DNA from: an uncultured Flavobacteriales bacterium
GTDB lineage: Bacteria > Bacteroidota > Bacteroidia > Flavobacteriales_G > Salibacteraceae
DNA: 35,872 nucleotides
Assembly (NCBI GenBank): GCA_937899835.1
Contig: CALCCE010000300.1
Coordinates: forward strand, 1 to 35,872
Direction of reading: 5' to 3'
The translations under genes and the position numbers were made by a program. The notes under the pieces were generated by a model. That model saw only the letters and a program-made list of their open reading frames with translations, made no database searches and was not told the origin of the DNA. Positions 22,197 through 35,728 of the stretch are shown here, one piece after another (within the stretch, counting starts at the first letter, position 1; every line of letters begins with the position of its first letter).

Positions 22197-24320
22197 CTAT
22201 TTAATGATAACAAACTTACCTTTTCGGATGTCGCCCGAATCGAGGTCTTCTACTGAGAACAGGTAAACCCCACGGGCAATGATTTGAGCATCGGCAGAAA
22301 GCAGGTCCCAGGCGTGTTCACCGCCTGAAAAAACCGTTTTTTCTGGATCAGAATAGGTGTTGAACCAGCGAATGTCGTTGCCGGTATAGGTTTGGTCGTG
22401 TACAAATTCGTCGATCAGGTCGCCTGCCACGGTGAAAACCCGAATGACGCAGCGTTCGGGCAAATTGGCAAAAATCAACTTGCGATCTTCCTCGAAAGAA
22501 CTGGCTCCTTCCCAGGAAGCGCCTCCATAATAAGGATTGGGATAGACAAACGGGTCAGAGCTTTTAATGCTCTCGTTAGCCGGCGTGCCCGCAAAAACGC
22601 GAAAACTGTTGGCCAACCGCGAAGATTCCAACGATTCCAGGTTGTTGAGCTCATCTCCCGTATCGAAGGCGGTGAGGGCCAAGGCATACTGCCAGCCATT
22701 CAATACATTATCGATGGTGTATTTATAAGTATACACCACCGTGTCTCCTTCGAAAGTCACCGGGCTTTCCAAACGAACGGAGTTGAAACCAGTCTCGAAA
22801 AACAAACCGTTTCCGGGAGCATCGTAAGCCGAAACCAGGTTGAGCGAAGACAGCAAATCGTTGTTGCCCTGCACATCAAACGCCAGCTTGGAAAGGTAAA
22901 TACGGTAGCCTTCGAAATCTTCTCTTTTAGATATCGGGTCTAAGGAAGACTCTGAGTTGTCGCTCCAATAGATGTCGATGTTATTGTCCGTGGCGATCAC
23001 CTTGGTGCGTGGAATATCCGGAGGGGTAGGAAGAATGAAACGGGTGATGATACCATTGCCGTCTTTGTCCTCGTCTTCGTCCAACACCCCGTTGAAGTTT
23101 ACGTCTTCTCCGTTGTAAGCCGTTTGCGCCCAAGAGGCATTTTGAATGAGGTTTTGCTGTTGGGCAGGATTGTTTTCCGAGTTGGGCCGACCATCTTCAT
23201 TCTTCTTGGCCAGAACCCAAGCCCAGGCAATGTCAATGGATTCGCCGGGCGCCAAAGATGGAAAAGGACCAATGGAGATAAGGTCAGATCGGTTCCCTGG
23301 ATTGTTGAGCACCTGAGAAATACTTTGAGCACCACAATTCGGATTGGTAGAACTGTTTTCCACCCAACATTCCATTTCATTGAGGCCGGTAATCATTTTG
23401 TTATAGCGGCCCAATTCGGTGGTGGGAATGAAGTAAAGCGGATCCGACGAATTGTTAAAAATCCAGCTTTGGTAATTGGCTTTGAAATTAGGGTCCAGGT
23501 CGGGATGATGAAACCCGTCCTTGTCTTCTGCGCCCAAAAACTTATGGGCAATGTAGCTTTCGGTAAAACCTACATCACCGGTGGCATCATAGCAATACGC
23601 CATCCGCAAAGAATCGATGTAGCCGTTGCCACCCTTGTCATAAAAAGCAGAACCACCCTGACCCGCAGGCGTAATGTTGATGTTGCGCACCACTTCGTTG
23701 CTCCACATCGAGAAATAAACATCGTTGAGGGTACTGGTTCCCGAATTGGTGATCCGGTAGTTGGCAATCACGAAAAAATCGCTGAACGAAAAGTTCCAGT
23801 TGTAAGTTTCCAGGTGCACATCGATGTTGAGCGGCTGCAAGTGATCGTTGATCTGAATGCTGGTGCCCGGCACCTGAACGTTCTTATCGGAAAAGTCGCA
23901 AACGAAATCTTCGTGTGAAACGGCATCTGGATTGAAGAACGGGCTGTCGATAAGGGTGGATCGCTTGGTGATCTGTGACCCTACTTCACCGGTGAATTCA
24001 AATCCGGCAGCACCAGTGGCGTAACCACTGGTACGATCATATGCTGCGGTAGACACTGCCACGATGGCACCGTCAATTTTGGCCCCTACCCAAAAACCAG
24101 CCTCAAACAAGTGCTCTATCCCCGAGTTGACAGGAAATTCACAGGAAGGGCTACCGATCACATCGAAGTTGCCACTAAAAGAGTTGCCGAAAGTTCCCAC
24201 GTTGGTCACCGTAAGCCCAACATTAGAAACCGAAGTCACACTTTCATCAAAAGAAGACTGTGCATGGGCGGTGAGCGAGGCACCACCCAACAGAATGGTT
24301 AAGACCTTGGTAAGCTTCAT
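22197..24320 (-). CDS. Large secreted protein with Ca-binding-like loop, FN3-like region and C-terminal sorting-like domain
   Basis: This 707-residue protein of unknown function has a signal peptide (about 1-21, ending TAHAQ). The first 400 residues contain beta-rich domains with paired cysteines. An acidic stretch at about 415-430 (NFNGVLDEDEDKDGNG) resembles EF-hand or dockerin calcium loops. An FN3-like region follows (about 445-580: NNIDIYWSDNSE, then YRIYLSKLAF). The last about 100 residues (FVYPNPYYGG, then IRVFTVAGDLIDEF, then ARGVYLFSVEDLD) match the FlgD-Ig/type A sorting-domain pattern, suggesting T9SS export. The ATG at 24320 is preferred to a TTG nine codons upstream because it begins the signal peptide. 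It ends in TAG. Confidence 0.75.
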   Translation of the reverse strand: MKLTKVLTILLGGASLTAHAQSSFDESVTSVSNVGLTVTNVGTFGNSFSGNFDVIGSPSCEFPVNSGIEHLFEAGFWVGAKIDGAIVAVSTAAYDRTSGYATGAAGFEFTGEVGSQITKRSTLIDSPFFNPDAVSHEDFVCDFSDKNVQVPGTSIQINDHLQPLNIDVHLETYNWNFSFSDFFVIANYRITNSGTSTLNDVYFSMWSNEVVRNINITPAGQGGSAFYDKGGNGYIDSLRMAYCYDATGDVGFTESYIAHKFLGAEDKDGFHHPDLDPNFKANYQSWIFNNSSDPLYFIPTTELGRYNKMITGLNEMECWVENSSTNPNCGAQSISQVLNNPGNRSDLISIGPFPSLAPGESIDIAWAWVLAKKNEDGRPNSENNPAQQQNLIQNASWAQTAYNGEDVNFNGVLDEDEDKDGNGIITRFILPTPPDIPRTKVIATDNNIDIYWSDNSESSLDPISKREDFEGYRIYLSKLAFDVQGNNDLLSSLNLVSAYDAPGNGLFFETGFNSVRLESPVTFEGDTVVYTYKYTIDNVLNGWQYALALTAFDTGDELNNLESLESSRLANSFRVFAGTPANESIKSSDPFVYPNPYYGGASWEGASSFEEDRKLIFANLPERCVIRVFTVAGDLIDEFVHDQTYTGNDIRWFNTYSDPEKTVFSGGEHAWDLLSADAQIIARGVYLFSVEDLDSGDIRKGKFVIIK

Positions 24321-27955: not shown

Positions 27956-28365
27956 GGTTTCAAAGCTTTCGGTTATTAGTGGTGAGCCTGCTTTTGCTGG
28001 CGGTAATGTCGTGTAGTAACCGACCGAAGTTGCCTCCACGGCCCGACGATGTGCTGGAAGAAGAACAAATGCTGGAATTGTTGGTGGATGTGCACATGAT
28101 AGAAGCCACCATTCAACGGCGGCTCATCAAAGGGGCAAACCCCAACTGGTTTGGTGCCCAACAGTACAAACTGATGTTCGATCGTCATGGCGTGCCACAA
28201 GAACAGTTTGAACGTAGTTATCAGTACTATTACCAGGATTCGAAAAAGATGACGGAGTTGTACGAAAAAGTCATCGAGGAGTTGAGCAAGCGTCAATCCA
28301 CTATTGGCAAAGGGGGCAATTCGAAAGACCTTAAGCCGTCGAATTCTGGGCAAGCTCCTTCTTAA
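27952..28365 (+). CDS. DUF4296-family lipoprotein
   Basis: This 137-residue protein has a short lipoprotein signal (lipobox VMSC, Cys near residue 21), then PPRPDDVLEEEQMLELLVDVHMIEATIQRR. That pattern is characteristic of DUF4296, a family known from Bacteroidota and of unknown function. The rest is helical and charged, with YKLMFDRHGVPQEQFERSY and a low-complexity Ser/Gly/Lys end. Adjacency to dihydroorotase is recurrent in this phylum. Its ATG overlaps the expected dihydroorotase TGA, so coupled translation is now disturbed by the TAG 90 bases upstream. Its 3' end overlaps the convergent SDR gene by 35 bases. Confidence 0.87.
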   Translation: MRFQSFRLLVVSLLLLAVMSCSNRPKLPPRPDDVLEEEQMLELLVDVHMIEATIQRRLIKGANPNWFGAQQYKLMFDRHGVPQEQFERSYQYYYQDSKKMTELYEKVIEELSKRQSTIGKGGNSKDLKPSNSGQAPS

Positions 28366-29353
28366 AGTAATTGGCGGTGAGCTTGATGGCGGCCCGCACC
28401 GGGCGAAATTCCATCGATAAAACCTCCTTCGCCTTATGGTTGGAAAAGGCGCGCACTTGTTGCGCAGAATGCGCATTCTCTCGCGTAATCTTTGCCATCT
28501 TACCCGTGAGCTTTTCCTGCAACCACTCCCAACGCCAGGCAATACTCAGCATCCACCGGGAAGCTGCAATTGATGGAGCAGGCACATTGAGCGATTCAGC
28601 GATCCAATCAAACACTTGTTTGTAGCTGAGGTTTTCTCCGGTCACCAAAAAGCGCTCGTTTTCGATGTCGCTTTTCATCAGTCTTTGCATGGCCTCTACC
28701 ACGTCACGCACATCCACAAAGGCGTTGGCACCAGATGGGAAAAACTTCATGCCTTCCCACAGGGTTTGAAACAGTTGGGCACTGCTGGAACCCCAGTTGC
28801 CCGGACCGATAACGATGCAGGGGTTGACCACTACCACCGATAACCCTTCTTCGGCACCGCGCCATACTTCCCGCTCAGCGAAGTGTTTGCTGATGGAGTA
28901 ATTGGAAGTGCGTTTGGAGGTTTTCCATTTGGTTTTTTCGGTTACCGGCAGCCCATTTGGGGCCGGACCAAGAGCGGCAGTGGAACTCACGTGGCAAAAT
29001 TTGCGCACCTTGTTTTCCAGGGCCGCGTTCACCACATTGGCTGTTCCACTGATGTTGATCTGCACCATTTTTTTGGCATCGCCGGAGTCGAAAGATACCA
29101 TGGCGGCACAGTGGTAGACTTCCTCAACACCTTTTAATTGATCGAACATTTTTGGTCCGTCCAATAGGTCGAGCTCTACCCACTCAATGGCTTGAAATTG
29201 GGCTTCGGTGCGGCCCAGTTGGAGAAATAATCTTCGAACGCGGTCGAGGTTGCTGTTGGACCTTCGGGAAGCGCGTATGGGCCGGTTTTCCAACACCAAT
29301 TCAGCCAATAAGTGTGCGCCAACAAGTCCAGTCCCTCCCGTCACGAAAATCAT
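28331..29353 (-). CDS. NAD(P)-dependent epimerase/dehydratase (extended SDR)
   Basis: This 340-residue Rossmann-fold protein has the nucleotide-binding motif VTGGTGLVGAHL at the N-terminus, an acidic DLLD at the adenine position, the NISGTANVVNAA helix, catalytic Ser in HVSSTAALG and the YxxxK pair in NYSISKHFAE. The C-terminal half binds the substrate. Similar proteins are sugar-nucleotide epimerases, dihydroflavonol-reductase-like enzymes or 3-beta-HSD-like enzymes; the GSSSAQLFQTLWEG region does not settle which. The gene is convergent to and overlaps the DUF4296 gene by 35 bases. Upstream TAATTTTA (29365-29358) is a one-mismatch -7 box. Confidence 0.88.
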   Translation of the reverse strand: MIFVTGGTGLVGAHLLAELVLENRPIRASRRSNSNLDRVRRLFLQLGRTEAQFQAIEWVELDLLDGPKMFDQLKGVEEVYHCAAMVSFDSGDAKKMVQINISGTANVVNAALENKVRKFCHVSSTAALGPAPNGLPVTEKTKWKTSKRTSNYSISKHFAEREVWRGAEEGLSVVVVNPCIVIGPGNWGSSSAQLFQTLWEGMKFFPSGANAFVDVRDVVEAMQRLMKSDIENERFLVTGENLSYKQVFDWIAESLNVPAPSIAASRWMLSIAWRWEWLQEKLTGKMAKITRENAHSAQQVRAFSNHKAKEVLSMEFRPVRAAIKLTANYFKKELAQNSTA

Positions 29354-29444
29354 ACGGTAAAATTACATCAAAACAACTTGGCAGGCAGGGCGAATCGGGC
29401 ACAGTCGTTCAAAATCGTCACAAAAAGTAGTTGCCAAAGCAGGA

Positions 29445-29472
29445 TTGGAAAATACGAATAAGGCTATCTTTG
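29445..29472 (+). promoter_or_regulatory. Promoter for tyrS
   Basis: TTG (29445-29447), a 17-base spacer and TATCTTTG (29465-29472, perfect TAnnTTTG) lie 19 bases before the ATG at 29492. Confidence 0.6.
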
Positions 29473-29491
29473 GCGGCAAATACCGAAGGTT

Positions 29492-30766
29492 ATGAATTTT
29501 GTGGAAGAATTAAGCTGGCGTGGAATGATCCATTCCATCATGCCGGGAACGGAGGCCGAATTGGAAAAAGGCATGGTGACGGGCTATGCGGGCTTTGACC
29601 CAACAGCAGATTCCTTACATATTGGAAACCTGGTGCCCATCATGATGCTGGTATTTTTACAGCGTTCGGGCCACAAACCCATTGCCTTGGTGGGCGGTGC
29701 CACCGGCATGGTGGGCGACCCTTCGGGCAAATCAGCCGAACGCAAACTCCTGGACGAGGAAACCCTTAACCACAACCTGGCTTGCCAGCGAAAGCAATTG
29801 GAACAGTTCCTCGATTTCTCCGATGCGCCCAATGCTGCCGAGATCGTCAACAACTACGACTGGTTCAAAAACCTGTCTTTTTTGGATTTCATCCGCGATG
29901 TGGGCAAACACATCACCGTCAACTACATGATGGCGAAAGACTCGGTGCAAAACCGTTTGGAGGCCGGACTTTCCTTTACCGAATTTTCTTACCAACTGGT
30001 ACAGGGCTACGACTTTTACTGGCTCTACGAAAACAAGAATTGCAAGCTGCAGGTAGGCGGTTCCGACCAGTGGGGGAACATTGTTACCGGAACTGAACTC
30101 GTTCGTCGGAAAGCACAAGGATCGGCTTTTGCCGTGACCTGTCCGTTGATTACCAAGGCCGATGGCACCAAGTTTGGAAAGAGCGAAGGCGGCAACATTT
30201 GGCTGGACAAAGAAAGGACCTCTCCCTTCAAATTTTACCAATATTGGTTGCAGTCTACCGACGAGGACATTGTGAATTACACGCGCATTTTTTCTTTGAA
30301 AAGCCGCGAAGCGATAGAAGCGTTGGAAGCACAACACGCCGAATCGCCCGGCATGCGTTTGCTGCAAAAAGAGCTGGGCAAAGAACTTACCATTCGGGTG
30401 CACTCCGAAGCAGATTTTGATCGCGCTTTAGAGGCTTCTGAAATTCTGTTTGGCAAAGGCACCGCTGAGGCCTTGGCGCGACTTCCAGAGGCTGATTTGC
30501 TCACCATTTTCGCCGGAGTCGATCAAGGCGAAATTCAAAAAGCCGACATCGATGCAGGCATTCCGATCCTGGAGTTGTTGGCCGGTAAAACCAACTTTTT
30601 GCCTTCTACCAGCGAAGGACGCAGGGCGCTGAAGGAAAACTCGATCAGTATAAACAAAGTGAAGGTAACTCCAGACTTGGTGGTGACTTCTGAAAATCTG
30701 ATTGCCGGCCGCTACCTGGTATTGCAGCGTGGTAAGAAGAAGAAATTCTTTGTGAAAGTAGTTTGA
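29492..30766 (+). CDS. tyrS: Tyrosyl-tRNA synthetase
   Basis: TyrS charges tRNA-Tyr with tyrosine. The 424 residues show the class I HIGH motif as HIGN ([12 protein letters not shown]), the tyrosine-binding segments [22 protein letters not shown] (quoted as GYDFYWLY and [10 protein letters not shown]), and the KMSKS-type loop as [11 protein letters not shown]-terminal S4 RNA-binding domain covers about residues 355-424 (SISINKVKV, then [14 protein letters not shown]). Length and domain order match the bacterial TyrS1 type. It is transcribed alone from the promoter at 29445-29472. The last 339 bases are overlapped on the minus strand by the reading frame of the neighbouring lipoprotein, which looks like an accident of that gene rather than of tyrS. 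Confidence 0.97.
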
Positions 30767-31312
30767 GCAGAGCTTCCGGCCTTTAGCGACCCGCGAACTG
30801 TTTTGTTTGCGAAATTCCCTTTTCAAGCGGAATTCCAGGTAAGTGTGCTGGTTGGTTTGAGGGGTATAATAGTTTTGACCACCGTACAAAAGTTGGCCTT
30901 TTCCATTGACCCATTTTGCGGCCATTAGTTTGTATACGCCCCGAGTGGCCGTAGGGTCGCCAAAGATGAGGAGCTTGCCTTCTCCGGTTTCAAAACTGAT
31001 GGCCAATCGACTGCCGTCCACAACTTTTTCAACCACGCCAGGCGTACCGGCTTTGATAATCACCTTTTCTACACTCGAGTTAGACGATACCTTGAGGGTG
31101 CCTTCGTCGGTTTTTTTGGTCCCGGTTTTCTCTCCCCGAAACAGCACGATATCATGGGAAGCGTAAAACTGAATAGATTTTAGGTCCGCCTCACTCAGCT
31201 TGTATTTTTGACGAACTTCCTGTGTAAAAGGAATTTTGGGAGCGCAAGAAGTCACTAACAATAGCAGGGCGAAAAGGGGCCACAAAGAGCCGTGCAAAAA
31301 TTTCCGGTTCAT
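30428..31312 (-). CDS. Lipoprotein with an apparent lost stop, running antisense into tyrS
   Basis: The frame encodes 294 residues. The first about 181 look like a genuine exported protein: lipoprotein signal with lipobox VTSC (Cys at residue 23), a helix, then a beta-rich domain ([18 protein letters not shown], then [21 protein letters not shown]), ending in a basic GRKL stretch near position 30770. From there the frame enters the tyrS antisense strand and the residues lose any family character. A TAA lies two bases out of frame at about 30782. The natural protein is probably about 180 residues, and the C-terminal 113 codons are a stop-loss or frameshift extension (inference). Function is unknown. 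Confidence 0.65.
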
Positions 31313-31359
31313 GGTTTAAAAAATGATTTCGCAACTCGTGAGCAAGAACCGTTCCAAGC

Positions 31360-32358
31360 TCAATCTACCAAGAGGTTACACCCACGGATGTCGCTGTGGT
31401 CAAATCGGCCCAGCACTTCAAACGTCCCATTTTCATATACCCTACCGAGGTCTTGGGTGGCAATGAAGCTGCAGGAATGGACATTGGCAAGGTCAATTAG
31501 GTTTAGACCTCCCGCTTGTTCGGCTTCCAACAGGGTCAAAGGGTCGTTGGCGTCTCGCACCAGCGCTCGAAACCATGGGGGCCCGGTAAATCGGCCTTTT
31601 CCTTGAGAATAAGCTTGTGAAAGCAGTTCCGTCATGCCGTATTCGGAATGGATCGGTTGTGGTCCAAAGCCTTTTTGCAATTGGGCGTGCAACGCGGCTT
31701 TAATCATCTCCTTCCGGCGTCCTTTCATGCCTCCGGTTTCCATCACTACCGTCGACTTTAGTGGGAAGGGCAACTGTTCTGCCAAATCCAGCAAGGCGTA
31801 ACTGACACCGAGTAGTAAGGTGGGAACACTGCGTTTTTCAAGGTTTTGCAGCTGCTCCACCAATTCACCTTGGTGCCTGAGGTAAAACCCACTTTCACGA
31901 AACCGACTTTGAGCGATCAGTTTTTCGGCCATGTAAATCAGGGAGGAGCCATCCCTTTCCAGGTAGGAGGGAAGTAAGGCCAATATGCACCAATCCTCGG
32001 CAGGTCCGTATTGCCTTTCAAATTCCAAATTAAAGCTCTGTTCGTAAAGAGAAACATCGGCTACCAGGTGTTCACTTCTCACCATGCCGGTAGTGCCGCT
32101 GCTTTGAAAAGTGATGGCCGGAGAAAGCCCTTCGGAGATGACCCGTTGGGTTTTGAAAAACGAAATAGGCAAAAATGGAATGTCTTCCACCTGCGCTACT
32201 TGGTTCACATCTATCTTTAGGGCTCCAACAAAGTCGCGGTAAATGGGAACGCTTTTCGCTTGATACCGAAATATTTGAAGCGCCAATGCGTTAAAATCAT
32301 CAGCACTTCCGAGGTTAAAAATCCGTGCTGCCCAAGGGCTGCCTGGTGCGTTGGTCAA
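31360..32358 (-). CDS. LuxE/PaaK-like acyl-protein synthetase or acyltransferase family protein
   Basis: This 332-residue protein belongs to the adenylate-forming-like LuxE group. It has ALQIFRYQAKSVPIYRDF near the N-terminus, the Ser/Thr-Gly-rich loop ITFQSSGTTGMVRSEH (phosphate-binding-loop equivalent), METGGMKGRRKEM, and SEYGMTELLSQAYS, which corresponds to the aromatic-Gly-Met-Thr-Glu motif. LuxE activates fatty acids or transfers acyl groups; in Bacteroidota this family is annotated as acyltransferase but the substrate is unknown. The start is TTG at 32358, because no ATG or GTG lies upstream in the open frame and the conserved region begins about 12 residues in. It is divergent from the lipoprotein gene at 32405, with only 46 bases between. 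Confidence 0.8.
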   Translation of the reverse strand: MTNAPGSPWAARIFNLGSADDFNALALQIFRYQAKSVPIYRDFVGALKIDVNQVAQVEDIPFLPISFFKTQRVISEGLSPAITFQSSGTTGMVRSEHLVADVSLYEQSFNLEFERQYGPAEDWCILALLPSYLERDGSSLIYMAEKLIAQSRFRESGFYLRHQGELVEQLQNLEKRSVPTLLLGVSYALLDLAEQLPFPLKSTVVMETGGMKGRRKEMIKAALHAQLQKGFGPQPIHSEYGMTELLSQAYSQGKGRFTGPPWFRALVRDANDPLTLLEAEQAGGLNLIDLANVHSCSFIATQDLGRVYENGTFEVLGRFDHSDIRGCNLLVD

Positions 32359-32404
32359 GGCTCGGTTGGGATTAATTCGTAGCTTTACAAGACCTTTACT
32401 GGTT

Positions 32405-32896
32405 ATGCAAATACGCTCAAAATTAGCTTTTCTTGTCGGTTTAATGGCGCTCGTTCTCGCATCTGCGTGTCGAAGAGATGAGTGCGATCAACCGGTTCCG
32501 GAGATCGATCTGGTAGAGTTTACCCAGTTTAGCAGAGATTCTGCCGTGCTGGTGATTTCCTTTAAAGATTGTGATGGCGATGTTGGGTTACCGCCAGAGC
32601 TAAAAGACGGAGAATTTCGCCACAACCTTTTTGTAGAATACTTTGAGTTGCAACAAGGGGAGTGGGTCCGTTTTGACACCACCGGTACAGGTGCTGACGG
32701 GCTCTACTATCGGGTTCCTCTAATCGATCCTGAAGGAAGCAGCAAGACCTTAGAGGGAGATATCTCCATCAAGCTGGGCAGCTATTACAACGTTTTCTCT
32801 CCTTACGATACGGTACGTTACGAAATCAGGCTGAAAGACCGCTCGCTGAATGTTTCGAACGTGATCACTACCCAGACCTACGTTTTCCCCCGTTAA
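32405..32896 (+). CDS. Hypothetical lipoprotein
   Basis: This 163-residue protein has a lipoprotein signal (lipobox ASAC, Cys near residue 22) followed by a Cys- and Asp-rich segment. The mature part has the motif SFKDCDGDVGLPPE, which recurs in small lipoproteins of this phylum and could bind a cation, and then a beta-sandwich-like region (YFELQQGEWVRF, then VRYEIRLKDRSLN). The family and function are not known to me. The ATG at 32405 was chosen as the start of the signal peptide; a TTG 18 codons upstream would overlap the divergent gene. A near -7 box (TAGCTTTA, 32380-32387) precedes it. Confidence 0.75.
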   Translation: MQIRSKLAFLVGLMALVLASACRRDECDQPVPEIDLVEFTQFSRDSAVLVISFKDCDGDVGLPPELKDGEFRHNLFVEYFELQQGEWVRFDTTGTGADGLYYRVPLIDPEGSSKTLEGDISIKLGSYYNVFSPYDTVRYEIRLKDRSLNVSNVITTQTYVFPR

Positions 32897-33039: not shown

Positions 33040-34743
33040 TTAGATTTGGCCGGAAGCAGCTGAATTGATGCTGAACAGCAGGTCGCCCACTTTTTCTATC
33101 GAAGAATAGAAGTCAGTGTAGATCATGCCGCTGCGGATGTTGTAGTCCCTGCGGGCAATGCTCTCCAAGTGCTGGCTGCGCATCTGGTCGCGGATAGTGT
33201 TGATTTCCACCTCAATCTTTTCAGGCGTTTCCAGAGAGATTTCACCCACATCCATTTGCAGGTTATCTACCGTCACTTCAAAGGCGGCTTCTACTTTGGT
33301 CATCAATTCCTTGAGGTGGTTGCGCTGCTCCGGGGTAAACCATGCCTTTGCGTCTCGTTTGGCGGCATAATTGCGCGACATTTGAAAGTAGATATCACCA
33401 ATATCTTCCAAATCGCCTACGATACTCAACATGCTACGCACCCGTGCTGAAGTAGCAGCGGTGAGTCCACCTTCCGAAACTTTCAACAAGTATTGAATGA
33501 CCTCTTCTTCGATTCGGTCGGTGATGATCTCGTATTTCTCAATACGCTCGATCAGCTGTTTTACCTTCTTTTCATCCTTAGAAGACATCAGCTCTTCTAC
33601 AAACCCATGCATCTTTTGGGTAATGCGCCCAAATTTGGTCACCTCCTTGCGCGCCTCTACCAAAGAGAGCTCTGGCGTGGCCAAAATGCCGCCACCAATA
33701 AAGTCGAGGTGAAACTGTTCGTCTTCTTCGTTTTTGGTAGGCACCATATAGGTTACCAATTTGGCAATAAAAGGCACGAACCAAATCAAAAGACTGGTAT
33801 TGATGATGTTGAATACCGTGTGAAACAAAGACAATTGCAACTGGTTGTTGCCTTTTTCAAACACGCCGGGATAGCCCGAAGACAGAGCATTCCACAGGTA
33901 TTGTATGAAATCGGTGAACCACGGCAGGGCGATAATCATCCACAACACCCCAAACGTATTGAAGATAAAGTGGGCCCTGGCGGCCCTTTTCGCGTGCACG
34001 TTGGCAATCAATGCGGCAAGGTTGGCGGTGATGGTAGTACCAATGTTTTCGCCCAACACCAAGGCAGCGGCCATTTCGTAGGTAATGATGTTTTGAAACA
34101 ACAAGCCCAAGGTGAGCGTCATGGCCGCACTGGAAGATTGCAGCACAATGGTGAGAATGGTGCCCACCAAAACAAACAAAAGGGTGGTTAAGATGCCCAA
34201 ATCAGTGTAGGACGACAAGAATTGAAGGCTGTTTCCATCCAGCTTGGGAATTGAGTCTTTGAGGGCGCTCAGTCCAAGAAACAGCAGTGCAAAACCGATT
34301 AGAAACTCAGCGGTTGCTTTCACCCGGCCGTTGCGGATGAACATTAGCGGAAAGCCAATGGCAATGATGGGCAGTGAATAATCGGAAATATCGAGCTTAC
34401 TAAAACCAAAGATAGAAACCAGCCATGCCGTAACCGTAGTGCCAATGTTGGCCCCCATGATTACTCCAATGGACTGGCGCAAGTTCAATAGCCCAGCATT
34501 GACAAAGCTCACCACCATTACTGTAGCGGCAGACGAACTTTGAATGAGGGAGGTAATGGAGAAGCCCGTGAGGACCCCACTGAGACGGTTGGTGGTAATG
34601 GCTCCCAGAATTTGCCGCATCTTTTTGCCGGCAATTTTCTGGATGCCTTCGCTCATCACCTTCATCCCGTAGATGAAGAAACCAAGCGATCCAACAAGCT
34701 TTAGAAAGTCGAGAAGGGTAAAACCAGTAGACGGATCATCCAT
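33040..34743 (-). CDS. Na+/phosphate cotransporter family protein with PhoU-like C-terminal domain
   Basis: This 567-residue inner-membrane transporter has two inverted repeats, each with the QSSSA signature: TSLIQSSSAATVMVV (near residue 67) and VLQSSSAAMTLTL (near 203). Each is followed by a G-x-NIGTT motif (GANIGTTVTAW and GENIGTTITAN), as expected for the NptA/PNaS family. About eight hydrophobic helices fill residues 10-330. The last about 200 residues form a PhoU-like helical bundle (KFGRITQKMHGFVEELM, then SIVGDLEDIGDIYFQMSRN), a common regulatory tail. Substrate is expected to be phosphate with Na+. The divergent neighbour is a PhoB-type regulator, and an 11-bp-spaced TTAA array lies upstream, consistent with phosphate-linked control (inference). 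Confidence 0.93.
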   Translation of the reverse strand: MDDPSTGFTLLDFLKLVGSLGFFIYGMKVMSEGIQKIAGKKMRQILGAITTNRLSGVLTGFSITSLIQSSSAATVMVVSFVNAGLLNLRQSIGVIMGANIGTTVTAWLVSIFGFSKLDISDYSLPIIAIGFPLMFIRNGRVKATAEFLIGFALLFLGLSALKDSIPKLDGNSLQFLSSYTDLGILTTLLFVLVGTILTIVLQSSSAAMTLTLGLLFQNIITYEMAAALVLGENIGTTITANLAALIANVHAKRAARAHFIFNTFGVLWMIIALPWFTDFIQYLWNALSSGYPGVFEKGNNQLQLSLFHTVFNIINTSLLIWFVPFIAKLVTYMVPTKNEEDEQFHLDFIGGGILATPELSLVEARKEVTKFGRITQKMHGFVEELMSSKDEKKVKQLIERIEKYEIITDRIEEEVIQYLLKVSEGGLTAATSARVRSMLSIVGDLEDIGDIYFQMSRNYAAKRDAKAWFTPEQRNHLKELMTKVEAAFEVTVDNLQMDVGEISLETPEKIEVEINTIRDQMRSQHLESIARRDYNIRSGMIYTDFYSSIEKVGDLLFSINSAASGQI

Positions 34744-34776: not shown

Positions 34777-34784
34777 CAAATCTA
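34777..34784 (-). promoter_or_regulatory. -7 box for the Na/Pi cotransporter
   Basis: On the minus strand TAGATTTG is a perfect TAnnTTTG match 33 bases before the ATG at 34743. No TTG is found at the -33 spacing, as expected for promoters that depend on an activator bound upstream. Confidence 0.5.
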
Positions 34785-34816: not shown

Positions 34817-34849
34817 GTTAATCTGAGGTTAACTTTGGGTTAACGGTTG
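34817..34849. promoter_or_regulatory. Triple GTTAA direct repeat, 11-bp period (PHO-box-like), transporter side
   Basis: GTTAA begins at 34817, 34828 and 34839, an exact 11-bp period of three units (GTTAATCTGAG, GTTAACTTTGG, GTTAACGGTTG). PhoB-type regulators bind direct repeats with 11-bp spacing. On the minus strand the units read TTAACC-like. The array lies about 33 bases upstream of the transporter -7 box. Confidence 0.6.
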
Positions 34850-34974
34850 GCCGCTTTGAGCACCAAAAAAGGGACAGGTATGCATGGGGAATGGAGGATG
34901 GGTTCGAATGGCGTGACCGATTAAAATTCGATCTCCATCCGGCATTATAGCTCGGCTACTTTTTACCTTTTGTT

Positions 34975-35007
34975 TTAAGTTTTGCTTAATCTTCAATTAA
35001 TGTTATT
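34975..35007. promoter_or_regulatory. Triple TTAA direct repeat, 11-bp period, response-regulator side
   Basis: TTAA begins at 34975, 34986 and 34997, again exactly 11 bp apart (TTAAGTTTTGC, TTAATCTTCAA, TTAATGTTATT). It ends about 40 bases before the response-regulator ATG. A loose -7 box, TAATTTCA at 35023-35030, lies downstream. The region is A+T rich, so chance matches are more likely than in the first array. The remaining bases of 34744-35047 show no gene. Confidence 0.5.
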
Positions 35008-35047
35008 GTAAATGCGCCCCCCTAATTTCAGCTTTCGAAACTCACCC

Positions 35048-35728
35048 ATGGAAGCGGCAAATTATAAGGTGCTCATTATCGACAACGACCCGGGAGACCG
35101 GAGCCGGATAGAAAGTGCACTGTCCGCAGAAGGCTATCGGGTTTATGCTGCTGGCACTGCGCAGGAAGGTATTCACACGGCCAATGCTGAATTGCCCCAT
35201 TTGGTTTTCACTGAGTTGGTGCTGGACGACATGGACGGTGTAGGCGTTTGTGTGGAGCTGCGCGAAAATCGAATGCTCAACCAAACGGGGATTGCCGTTT
35301 TATCCCATCGTCAGGAAAACTATTCCCAAATTGCCGCACTCAATGCTGGTGCAGACGATTACTTAGTGAAGCCCGTAAATACCCGGCTCTTTTTGTCCAA
35401 GGTCCGCGCCATGTTACGCCGGTTGGACACCCTCGATGCTTTGCCAGGCAATGCAATAGCGGGCTTGCGCATCGATCGGGAGAAGTTTTTGGTCGTACGA
35501 AACAACCGCGAAATCTTCCTTCCTCGCAAAGAATTTGAAATCTTATCGTTGCTGGTGAGCAAGCCCAAAAAAGTATTTTCTCGTGAAGAGATCAAAGACG
35601 AAGTATGGGGGTTCTCCGAAAATGTAAGAAGTCGGACCATCGACGTGCACATTCGTAAGCTGCGCGAAAAAGTAGGCGAGCGCCTCATTAAAACGGTGAA
35701 AGGGGTGGGCTACAAGCTCGAAGCCTGA
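35048..35728 (+). CDS. OmpR/PhoB-type response regulator with altered phosphorylation site
   Basis: This 226-residue regulator has a receiver domain (about 5-120) and a winged-helix DNA-binding domain (about 132-226, with RSRTIDVHIRKLREKVG as recognition helix and VKGVGYKLE as wing). In the receiver, the residue aligned with the phospho-acceptor Asp is Glu56 (LVFTELVLDDMDG), the second Mg-binding acid is Asn13 (LIIDNDPGD), while Ser86 and Lys108 are kept. It therefore probably works without normal phosphorylation, and Glu may imitate the active state. The ATG at 35048 was preferred to one at 35012, which would add 12 residues and fall before the likely -7 box. No kinase gene lies in the window. 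It is divergent from a Na/Pi transporter and may regulate it and itself (inference). Confidence 0.9.
   Translation: MEAANYKVLIIDNDPGDRSRIESALSAEGYRVYAAGTAQEGIHTANAELPHLVFTELVLDDMDGVGVCVELRENRMLNQTGIAVLSHRQENYSQIAALNAGADDYLVKPVNTRLFLSKVRAMLRRLDTLDALPGNAIAGLRIDREKFLVVRNNREIFLPRKEFEILSLLVSKPKKVFSREEIKDEVWGFSENVRSRTIDVHIRKLREKVGERLIKTVKGVGYKLEA

Follow-up and report, generated by a model that had tools for sequence, protein, structure and literature searches.

Which regulator reads two phased repeat arrays between a phosphate importer gene and a divergent regulator gene, and what does a PhoB-like protein with an altered receiver do beside them? These questions are raised by a contig of an uncultured Flavobacteriales bacterium, which was analysed over its whole length of 35,872 nucleotides (contig C300, hereafter referred to as the window). 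A preliminary description of this DNA had reported three TTAA motifs at an 11-bp period facing each of the two genes, and had proposed a self-contained phosphate-response switch not described in Bacteroidota. Statements on published work given below refer to the accessible parts of the cited papers.

The importer locus and its two repeat arrays

Domain matches bore out the proposed identities of both genes, i.e. Na_Pi_cotrans together with a PhoU domain on the minus strand, and Response_reg together with Trans_reg_C on the plus strand (the regulator is hereafter called RR2). The transporter scores above the cut-off of TIGR00704 (Na/Pi-cotransporter II-related; 228.4 bits against 210.1) and is the one Na/Pi transporter candidate of its genome. 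No PHO4 protein was found in the same genome; PstC over the cut-off was absent from it and from 18 further genomes, among which were the ten other RR2 carriers, with weaker PstC matches in 6 of these 19. The transporter is the only member found of the three Pi-importer families tested (Na_Pi_cotrans, PHO4 and PstC) in a genome that is 98% complete, and the cell may have no other phosphate importer.

The genes flanking the transporter (Table 1) occur in a common order in the window, G007, G018, Acidiluteibacter ferrifornacis S-15 (L119) and L121, and the flank lies next to the transporter-RR2 pair in L103, L264, L119 and L121, some of these having one more gene between tyrS and the LuxE-like gene. 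The window ends just past the regulator, and contig C49 of the same genome opens with lipoprotein and TonB genes. Because relatives have such lipoprotein and TonB-type genes after RR2 (in G007 and G011 they stand before phoB, in G011 in another order and with one small ORF between), the gene order suggests that C300 and C49 are probably adjacent. Among named genomes, a PhoR-type histidine kinase gene lies divergently and directly beside the transporter in L154, L157, L158 and L191, which represents another pairing of the transporter with signalling.

Table 1 Features of the transporter-RR2 locus and a further match in the same genome.
Feature	Position	Strand	Remarks
Conserved flank: epimerase (-), tyrS (+), LuxE-like (-), lipoprotein (+)	28331..32896		Names by reading, apart from LuxE
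Na+/Pi symporter with C-terminal PhoU-like domain	33040..34743	-	PF02690 6e-62, PF01895 5e-9
Transporter -7 box TAGATTTG	34777..34784	-	Perfect TAnnTTTG
Array 1, three predicted 11-bp PHO-box units of the transporter promoter	34817..34844	-	TTAAC read on the minus strand
Array 2, three weaker predicted 11-bp units of the regulator promoter	34975..35000	+	
Candidate imperfect -7 box TAATTTCA of the regulator promoter	35023..35030	+	4/6 fixed bases
RR2, PhoB paralog with pseudo-receiver	35048..35728	+	ORF readable from 35012
Glu codon at the phospho-acceptor position	35213..35215	+	Sequence and alignments
Upstream of polyphosphate kinase (ppk), 49/38 box-plus--7 match	L268 1501-1597 (G000:C264)		

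The motif positions of the preliminary description proved to be exact, with GTTAA starting at 34817, 34828 and 34839 and TTAA at 34975, 34986 and 34997. Its reading of one array per divergent promoter also stands, each array consisting of three direct repeats of the PhoB type at 11-bp pitch. The triple TTAA-N7-TTAA-N7-TTAA occurs twice in the window, once as array 1 and once as array 2; in 100 dinucleotide-preserving shuffles of the window, the mean was 0.02 and none reached two. When the 304-base intergenic region was subjected to 20,000 dinucleotide shuffles, one array was obtained in 3 of them and two arrays in none, while a triple of any period from 6 to 20 was present in 80.

With a matrix trained on transporter upstreams, from which the window was excluded, the four highest scores in the window all fell on the arrays (16.9, 15.6, 11.4 and 8.7 bits), array 1 providing the top sites on its two strands (16.9 and 15.6) and array 2 the fourth best (8.7). 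A matrix trained on phoB upstreams also ranked array 1 first, followed by a site at 24297, and placed array 2 fourth. The score of array 2 is reached by 8.6% of the control upstreams, and taken alone this array would not stand out.

Conservation, spacing and genome-wide occurrence of the repeats

A de novo EM motif search in 106 transporter upstreams without the window yielded TTAACATT-A-TTAACA as a direct repeat at 11-bp pitch, so that the repeat upstream of orthologous transporters, the window left out, reads TTAACA-N5-TTAACA. A TTAA repeat, likewise of 11 bp, was obtained from 29 phoB upstreams including the genome's own, and three samples of 106 other upstreams gave no such repeat (likelihood 122 to 143 vs 348 for the transporter set). 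Upstreams had been dropped for shared 12-mers or short length, reducing the transporter set from 121 to 106 and the phoB set from 30 to 29. In cross-tests, 16 of the 29 phoB and 49 of the 106 transporter upstreams scored above the 95% control level. This level is conservative, since phosphate-selective porins sit among the controls: 16 of 315 control upstreams exceed the 12.2-bit level, and 5 of those are phosphate-selective porins by reading.

By the preliminary description, orthologous intergenic regions that did not share the 11-bp spacing would have refuted the proposal; the spacing is clearly conserved. It had also pointed to phosphate genes of relatives as places where the same motif should be sought, and the motif is indeed present upstream of phoB, porin O/P, PiT and Na/Pi transporters. 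The box precedes five porin O/P genes that had been intended as controls (assigned by reading, one confirmed by Pfam) as well as two PiT transporters, one of them the second gene of its operon. Upstream of the genome's own TonB receptor at the phoBR locus, the box is present with one mismatch; in Flavobacterium johnsoniae, a TonB receptor and a lipoprotein at the corresponding place beside phoBR are tabulated as responding to Pi depletion (PMC8115612), the two loci being compared here by gene position. The intergenic region between this TonB receptor and phoB (L099 4553-4686, G000:C49) has a box in each direction (12.1 and 12.3 bits), like the pair in the window.

Another OmpR-family regulator, from outside the phosphate system, might also read TTAAC repeats. 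The genome contains 22 regulator matches, RR2 included, and the motif of Riemerella PhoP has been reported to resemble that of E. coli ArcA (PMC9603813), both of which would leave room for such a regulator. The boxes, however, precede phoB, porin O/P, PiT and Na/Pi transporters and the phoBR-linked TonB receptor, which are phosphate genes by annotation or position, and we consider this possibility improbable.

At the transporter promoter, the description of a perfect -7 box was correct, as TAGATTTG fits TAnnTTTG fully, and no TTG-type -33 element was seen by eye, in line with the -33 element having been described as missing. The sigma-A -7 box of F. psychrophilum, TAnnTTTG, corresponds to positions -12 to -5 (PMC9723704). 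The three units of array 1 lie 60, 49 and 38 bases upstream of TAGATTTG, and 49 and 38 are the commonest box-start distances in relatives. A matrix trained solely on phoB upstreams found the box in 46 of the 106 transporter upstreams. Of the 25 distances from box to -7 that it provided, 13 are 49 bases and 6 are 38, and 20 fall in one 11-bp phase (12 of 17 after merging of similar boxes); the computed p-values (6e-16 and 1e-8) overstate the case for this spacing because the sequences are related. The conserved distance is consistent with the suggestion that the promoter is of the activator-dependent type.

At the RR2 promoter, TAATTTCA lies 38 bases after the start of the array 2 box, but it was picked with that distance in mind and is hence not independent evidence. 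The distance from the best box to the -7 downstream of it is exactly 38 bases in 7 of 11 RR2 promoters according to the transporter-trained matrix and in 6 of 11 according to the phoB-trained one, the window counted in both cases; the latter is the cleaner test, since the 300-bp upstreams behind the transporter-trained matrix may reach the RR2 promoter. The relatives with this geometry are L119, L121, L122 (by the transporter-trained matrix only), L123, L126 and L140, with 5 of 6 fixed bases of the -7 in L126 and L140. In the RR2 promoter of L194, the box is found 27 bases before a -7-like box. The 38-base geometry is absent on the RR2 side of L103, L104 and L107, which are RR2 carriers of the same family and in which the best box faces RR2 and not the transporter. 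In L140 and L126 (Vicingaceae), RR2 is situated downstream of the transporter with a box of its own (19.1 and 11.9 bits, respectively), 38 bases from a TAATTTT-type -7. Canonical phoB promoters revealed little geometry, as two distances to TAnnTTTG were found and one was in phase; the genome's own phoB has a -7-like TAATTTCG, which resembles TAATTTCA and is one base further from the box. Among the controls, all five distances to TAnnTTTG fall in the same 11-bp phase.

Genome-wide, TTAAC-N6-TTAAC-N6-TTAA with up to one mismatch gave 6 matches in 6.9 Mb (the array site being counted on both strands) vs 17 for the backwards control. The box plus -7 gave 69 vs 140 in the own genome with two mismatches allowed and 37 vs 44 in 60 relatives with one mismatch, and the 49/38 pattern gave 9 vs 6 in the own genome with one mismatch. 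The bare motif was consequently rejected as evidence, being no commoner than its backwards control; since it is not rare genome-wide, the evidence rests on geometry and conservation, and the motif alone defines no regulon. Regulon membership is accordingly not claimed for arbitrary genes that have a match upstream (C75:8246, the aquaporin at C238:47055). Exact matches to the pattern TTAA-N7-TTAA-N33-TAnnTTTG number two in 6.9 Mb, namely the transporter promoter and the region upstream of ppk (Table 1). No matrix site over 5 bits was found upstream of ppk, and for ppk as a regulon member the match is only suggestive. In contig C291 of the same genome, a minus-strand ORF (3-605) at the contig start, whose product looks secreted and has no Pfam match, has a strong box of 21.5 bits upstream (L199 627-671), from which a perfect -7 is 38 bases away.

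The lack of genome-wide enrichment, for the bare motif and for the box-plus--7 patterns alike, is what one would expect if the 11-bp phasing had arisen by accident in a TTAA-rich spacer. Against such an accident stand the 20,000 shuffles of the intergenic region without a single pair of arrays, and the conservation and fixed -7 distance in relatives, which make it very improbable. On account of the conserved 11-bp repeat, the matrix scores and the fixed distance to the -7 box, we regard both arrays as predicted PHO boxes with high confidence.

RR2, a PhoB paralog with an altered receiver

The start of RR2 is most likely the ATG at 35048 and not 35012, because relatives begin there, which would place array 2 at least 48 bases upstream of the gene. 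A tree built from 47 regulators (14 of 59 had been dropped beforehand and two outgroups added) groups RR2 and ten other proteins in one clade (98/91). Together with six proteins of another family, this clade forms a larger one (100/99), which lies among PhoB-type proteins. The sister group consists of the f22-type PhoB paralogs (L077, L078, L080, L081, L082 and L086), which have Asp at the phosphosite in four cases and Glu in two; in the four of their six loci that were viewed, no transporter was recognised beside them by reading. RR2 scores below the PhoB equivalog cut-offs (160.6 against 296.2 for TIGR02154 and 143.7 against 270 bits for NF053854), as does the canonical PhoB of the genome (217.0 and 216.4, respectively).

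Alignments support the altered receiver of the preliminary description, i.e. the phospho-acceptor Asp of RR2 is a Glu. The protein keeps the acidic residues, Ser and Lys, and without the acceptor Asp it does not count as a phosphorylatable PhoB. The AlphaFold2 model of RR2 has a mean pLDDT of 89.2, and its receiver matches solved receivers with a TM score (target) above 0.9. RR2 is thus classified as a pseudo-receiver protein, in which the receiver fold is kept and the acceptor Asp is replaced by Glu. The receivers of the clade have diverged, with a mean pairwise identity of 0.27 compared to 0.55 for the DNA-binding domains (0.70 and 0.74, respectively, in 12 chosen canonical PhoBs). At the phosphosite, the 11 members have E in three, P in two, S in one, A in one and D in four cases, the Glu carriers being the window, L104 and L107, and the acidic pair or the Lys is missing in several members. 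A fixed phosphomimic Glu as the common mechanism of the clade was rejected in view of these different residues.

The recognition-helix residues are named by E. coli PhoB numbering. The helix is intact in RR2: R193, D196, V197, H198, R200 and R203 are kept in all 11 members, Lys 201 in ten and T194 in nine. In the preceding loop, G191 is kept in none of the 11 (R or K in seven), D192 in none and G185 in five; W184 is retained in all 11 and V190 in eight. The 38 other PhoB-type proteins have G191 in 36, D192 in 34 and G185 in 35 cases, and in the six f22-type proteins positions 191 and 192 are changed as well, with G185 kept (4 of the 59 regulators had been dropped before this count). E. coli PhoB loses activation in the loop mutants W184R, G185R, V190M and D192G, and the patch that faces sigma is acidic (Glu177 and Glu191; PMC3973317). 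Canonical Bacteroidota PhoBs have Gly and not Glu at 191, so that the sigma contact need not be identical. Moreover, since W184 and V190 are kept, and since the f22-type proteins (Asp in four of the six) have the same two positions altered, the loop changes may not mean lost activation.

RR2 might also be a phosphorylation-independent activator, which would keep the importer and itself switched on after a start by phosphorylated PhoB, the Glu of this lineage serving as a phosphate mimic. The Glu of the window, L104 and L107 would fit this possibility, as would W184 and the dimer-face motif GADD, which is found in 9 of the 11 RR2 proteins; furthermore, ChxR, an atypical OmpR/PhoB regulator, activates without phosphorylation (PMC3960148). 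However, the Glu is not kept in the clade, which has P, S, A or D elsewhere, and loop positions 191 and 192 are changed in every member, so that we regard such an activator as somewhat unlikely.

PhoB, RR2 and the use of the boxes

The genome of the window also encodes an ordinary PhoB, which has the acceptor Asp, together with a PhoR-type kinase (C49:4686-6402). The kinase contains HisKA and HATPase_c domains, lies below the PhoR cut-offs (219.5 against 334.2 for TIGR02966 and 163.0 against 500 for NF053855) and is called PhoR-type by its place after phoB. With this canonical pair present, and with the box kept at the transporter in L072 to L076, where no paralog adjoins in the transporter neighbourhood, the reading of a self-contained switch is not supported. 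The statement that nothing of the kind is described in Bacteroidota was too strong, since published accounts cover PhoRB of Bacteroides fragilis (PMC3547664), the response of F. johnsoniae, with its phoBR cluster, to low Pi (PMC8115612) and a PhoP/PhoB-type motif in Riemerella anatipestifer (PMC9603813).

Because a canonical PhoB and a PhoR-type kinase are present in the genome, phosphorylated PhoB (PhoB~P) would be the natural activator of both arrays. We propose that under low phosphate the partner kinase would switch on the ordinary PhoB, and that PhoB~P would bind the units of array 1 (about -71, -60 and -49) as well as those of array 2 (about -60, -49 and -38), the arrays serving dimers of the PhoB family as head-to-tail sites at 11-bp pitch in a pair of divergent promoters. 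At these promoters, in which a -7 box is present and a -33 box is lacking, PhoB~P would recruit RNA polymerase, and the Na+/Pi importer and the divergent RR2 would be raised simultaneously. RR2, as an old PhoB paralog beyond the usual phosphorylation control, with an intact recognition helix and a changed sigma-contact loop, would settle on the same boxes without phosphorylation, and while accumulating it would compete with PhoB~P or form mixed dimers, thereby acting as a delayed brake on import and on its own synthesis.

As an overall explanation, boxes activated by PhoB~P with RR2 as a phosphorylation-blind competitor appear reasonably probable to us, although array 2 is weak, its -7 box is poor and four of the 11 RR2 proteins keep the Asp. 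The changed loop and the shifting phosphosite would favour a brake over a lasting activator; that RR2 restrains both promoters is nevertheless a tentative proposal, which falls short of being probable. We are more hesitant still about the wider idea that some Flavobacteriales possess a dedicated anti-PhoB, i.e. an ancient paralog that would have lost both phosphorylation control and the sigma contact but kept the DNA specificity of PhoB.

PhoB might also be the sole user of the arrays. RR2 would then act at other places, or by touching other proteins such as the kinase, PhoB or the transporter's PhoU-like domain, and historical linkage would account for its placement. Boxes persist at transporters without an adjoining RR2. 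RR2 itself was found at 7 of the 80 named transporter loci (five back-to-back and two downstream; contig ends truncate some of the loci), and among 60 relatives, the own genome counted, at least four have it (regulator matches of 1e-40 or better). These observations agree with PhoB as the sole user. On the other hand, the recognition helix has remained nearly letter-perfect while the receiver drifted, a box is present in RR2's own promoter, and pair and flank have the same order in five loci. We therefore consider it unlikely that PhoB is the only protein using the arrays.

The predicted boxes and the proposed competition by RR2 can be compared to known systems. The E. coli PHO box consists of two 11-nt units (PMC4415409) and that of cyanobacterial SphR of at least three 8-bp CTTAACCT units with 3-bp linkers (PMC1906773); the resemblance of array 1 to the latter had been pointed out before and is supported. 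Like these boxes, the arrays are 11-bp direct repeats upstream of the promoter's downstream element, whereas their consensus is TTAACA/TTAACC and their distance is kept to the Bacteroidota -7 TAnnTTTG and not to a -10. The DAP-seq motif of R. anatipestifer PhoP, a PhoP/PhoB-type regulator of the same phylum, is most conserved at TTTAACA (PMC9603813), but it was reported as ArcA-like and in a virulence context, and the accessible part of that report does not mention an 11-bp geometry. The F. johnsoniae phoBR cluster is similar by the position of a TonB receptor and a lipoprotein beside phoBR, and the accessible part of the low-Pi account does not mention a transporter-RR2 pair (PMC8115612).

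As in ChxR and HP1043, a receiver lacking phosphorylation residues is joined to a DNA-binding domain in RR2, and the BldM-WhiI heterodimer provides an example for mixed dimers such as RR2 might form (PMC12632262). In contrast to these, as far as they are described in the accessible text, RR2 is a paralog of a canonical PhoB that coexists with it in the genome, shares its recognition helix and has a changed sigma-contact loop. PHO boxes, PhoRB and low-Pi responses in Bacteroidota are already known, as are pseudo-receiver regulators (PMC12632262). A transporter-linked pseudo-receiver PhoB clade or pair was not met in a literature search that had most subscription journals outside its reach.

The analysis provides a phylogenetically grounded PHO box with its -7 distance for this part of Bacteroidota, which could help to read the Pho regulons of environmental species. 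The RR2 clade moreover represents a natural series, in which one PhoB-derived pseudo-receiver clade has E, P, S, A or D at a single site. How pseudo-receivers are switched on and off was called a mystery in 2025 (PMC12632262), and the transporter-RR2 locus brings this question down to one intergenic region, where it can be put to the test. If an anti-PhoB is indeed encoded back-to-back with the importer, the phosphate response would build its own DNA-competing brake alongside import.
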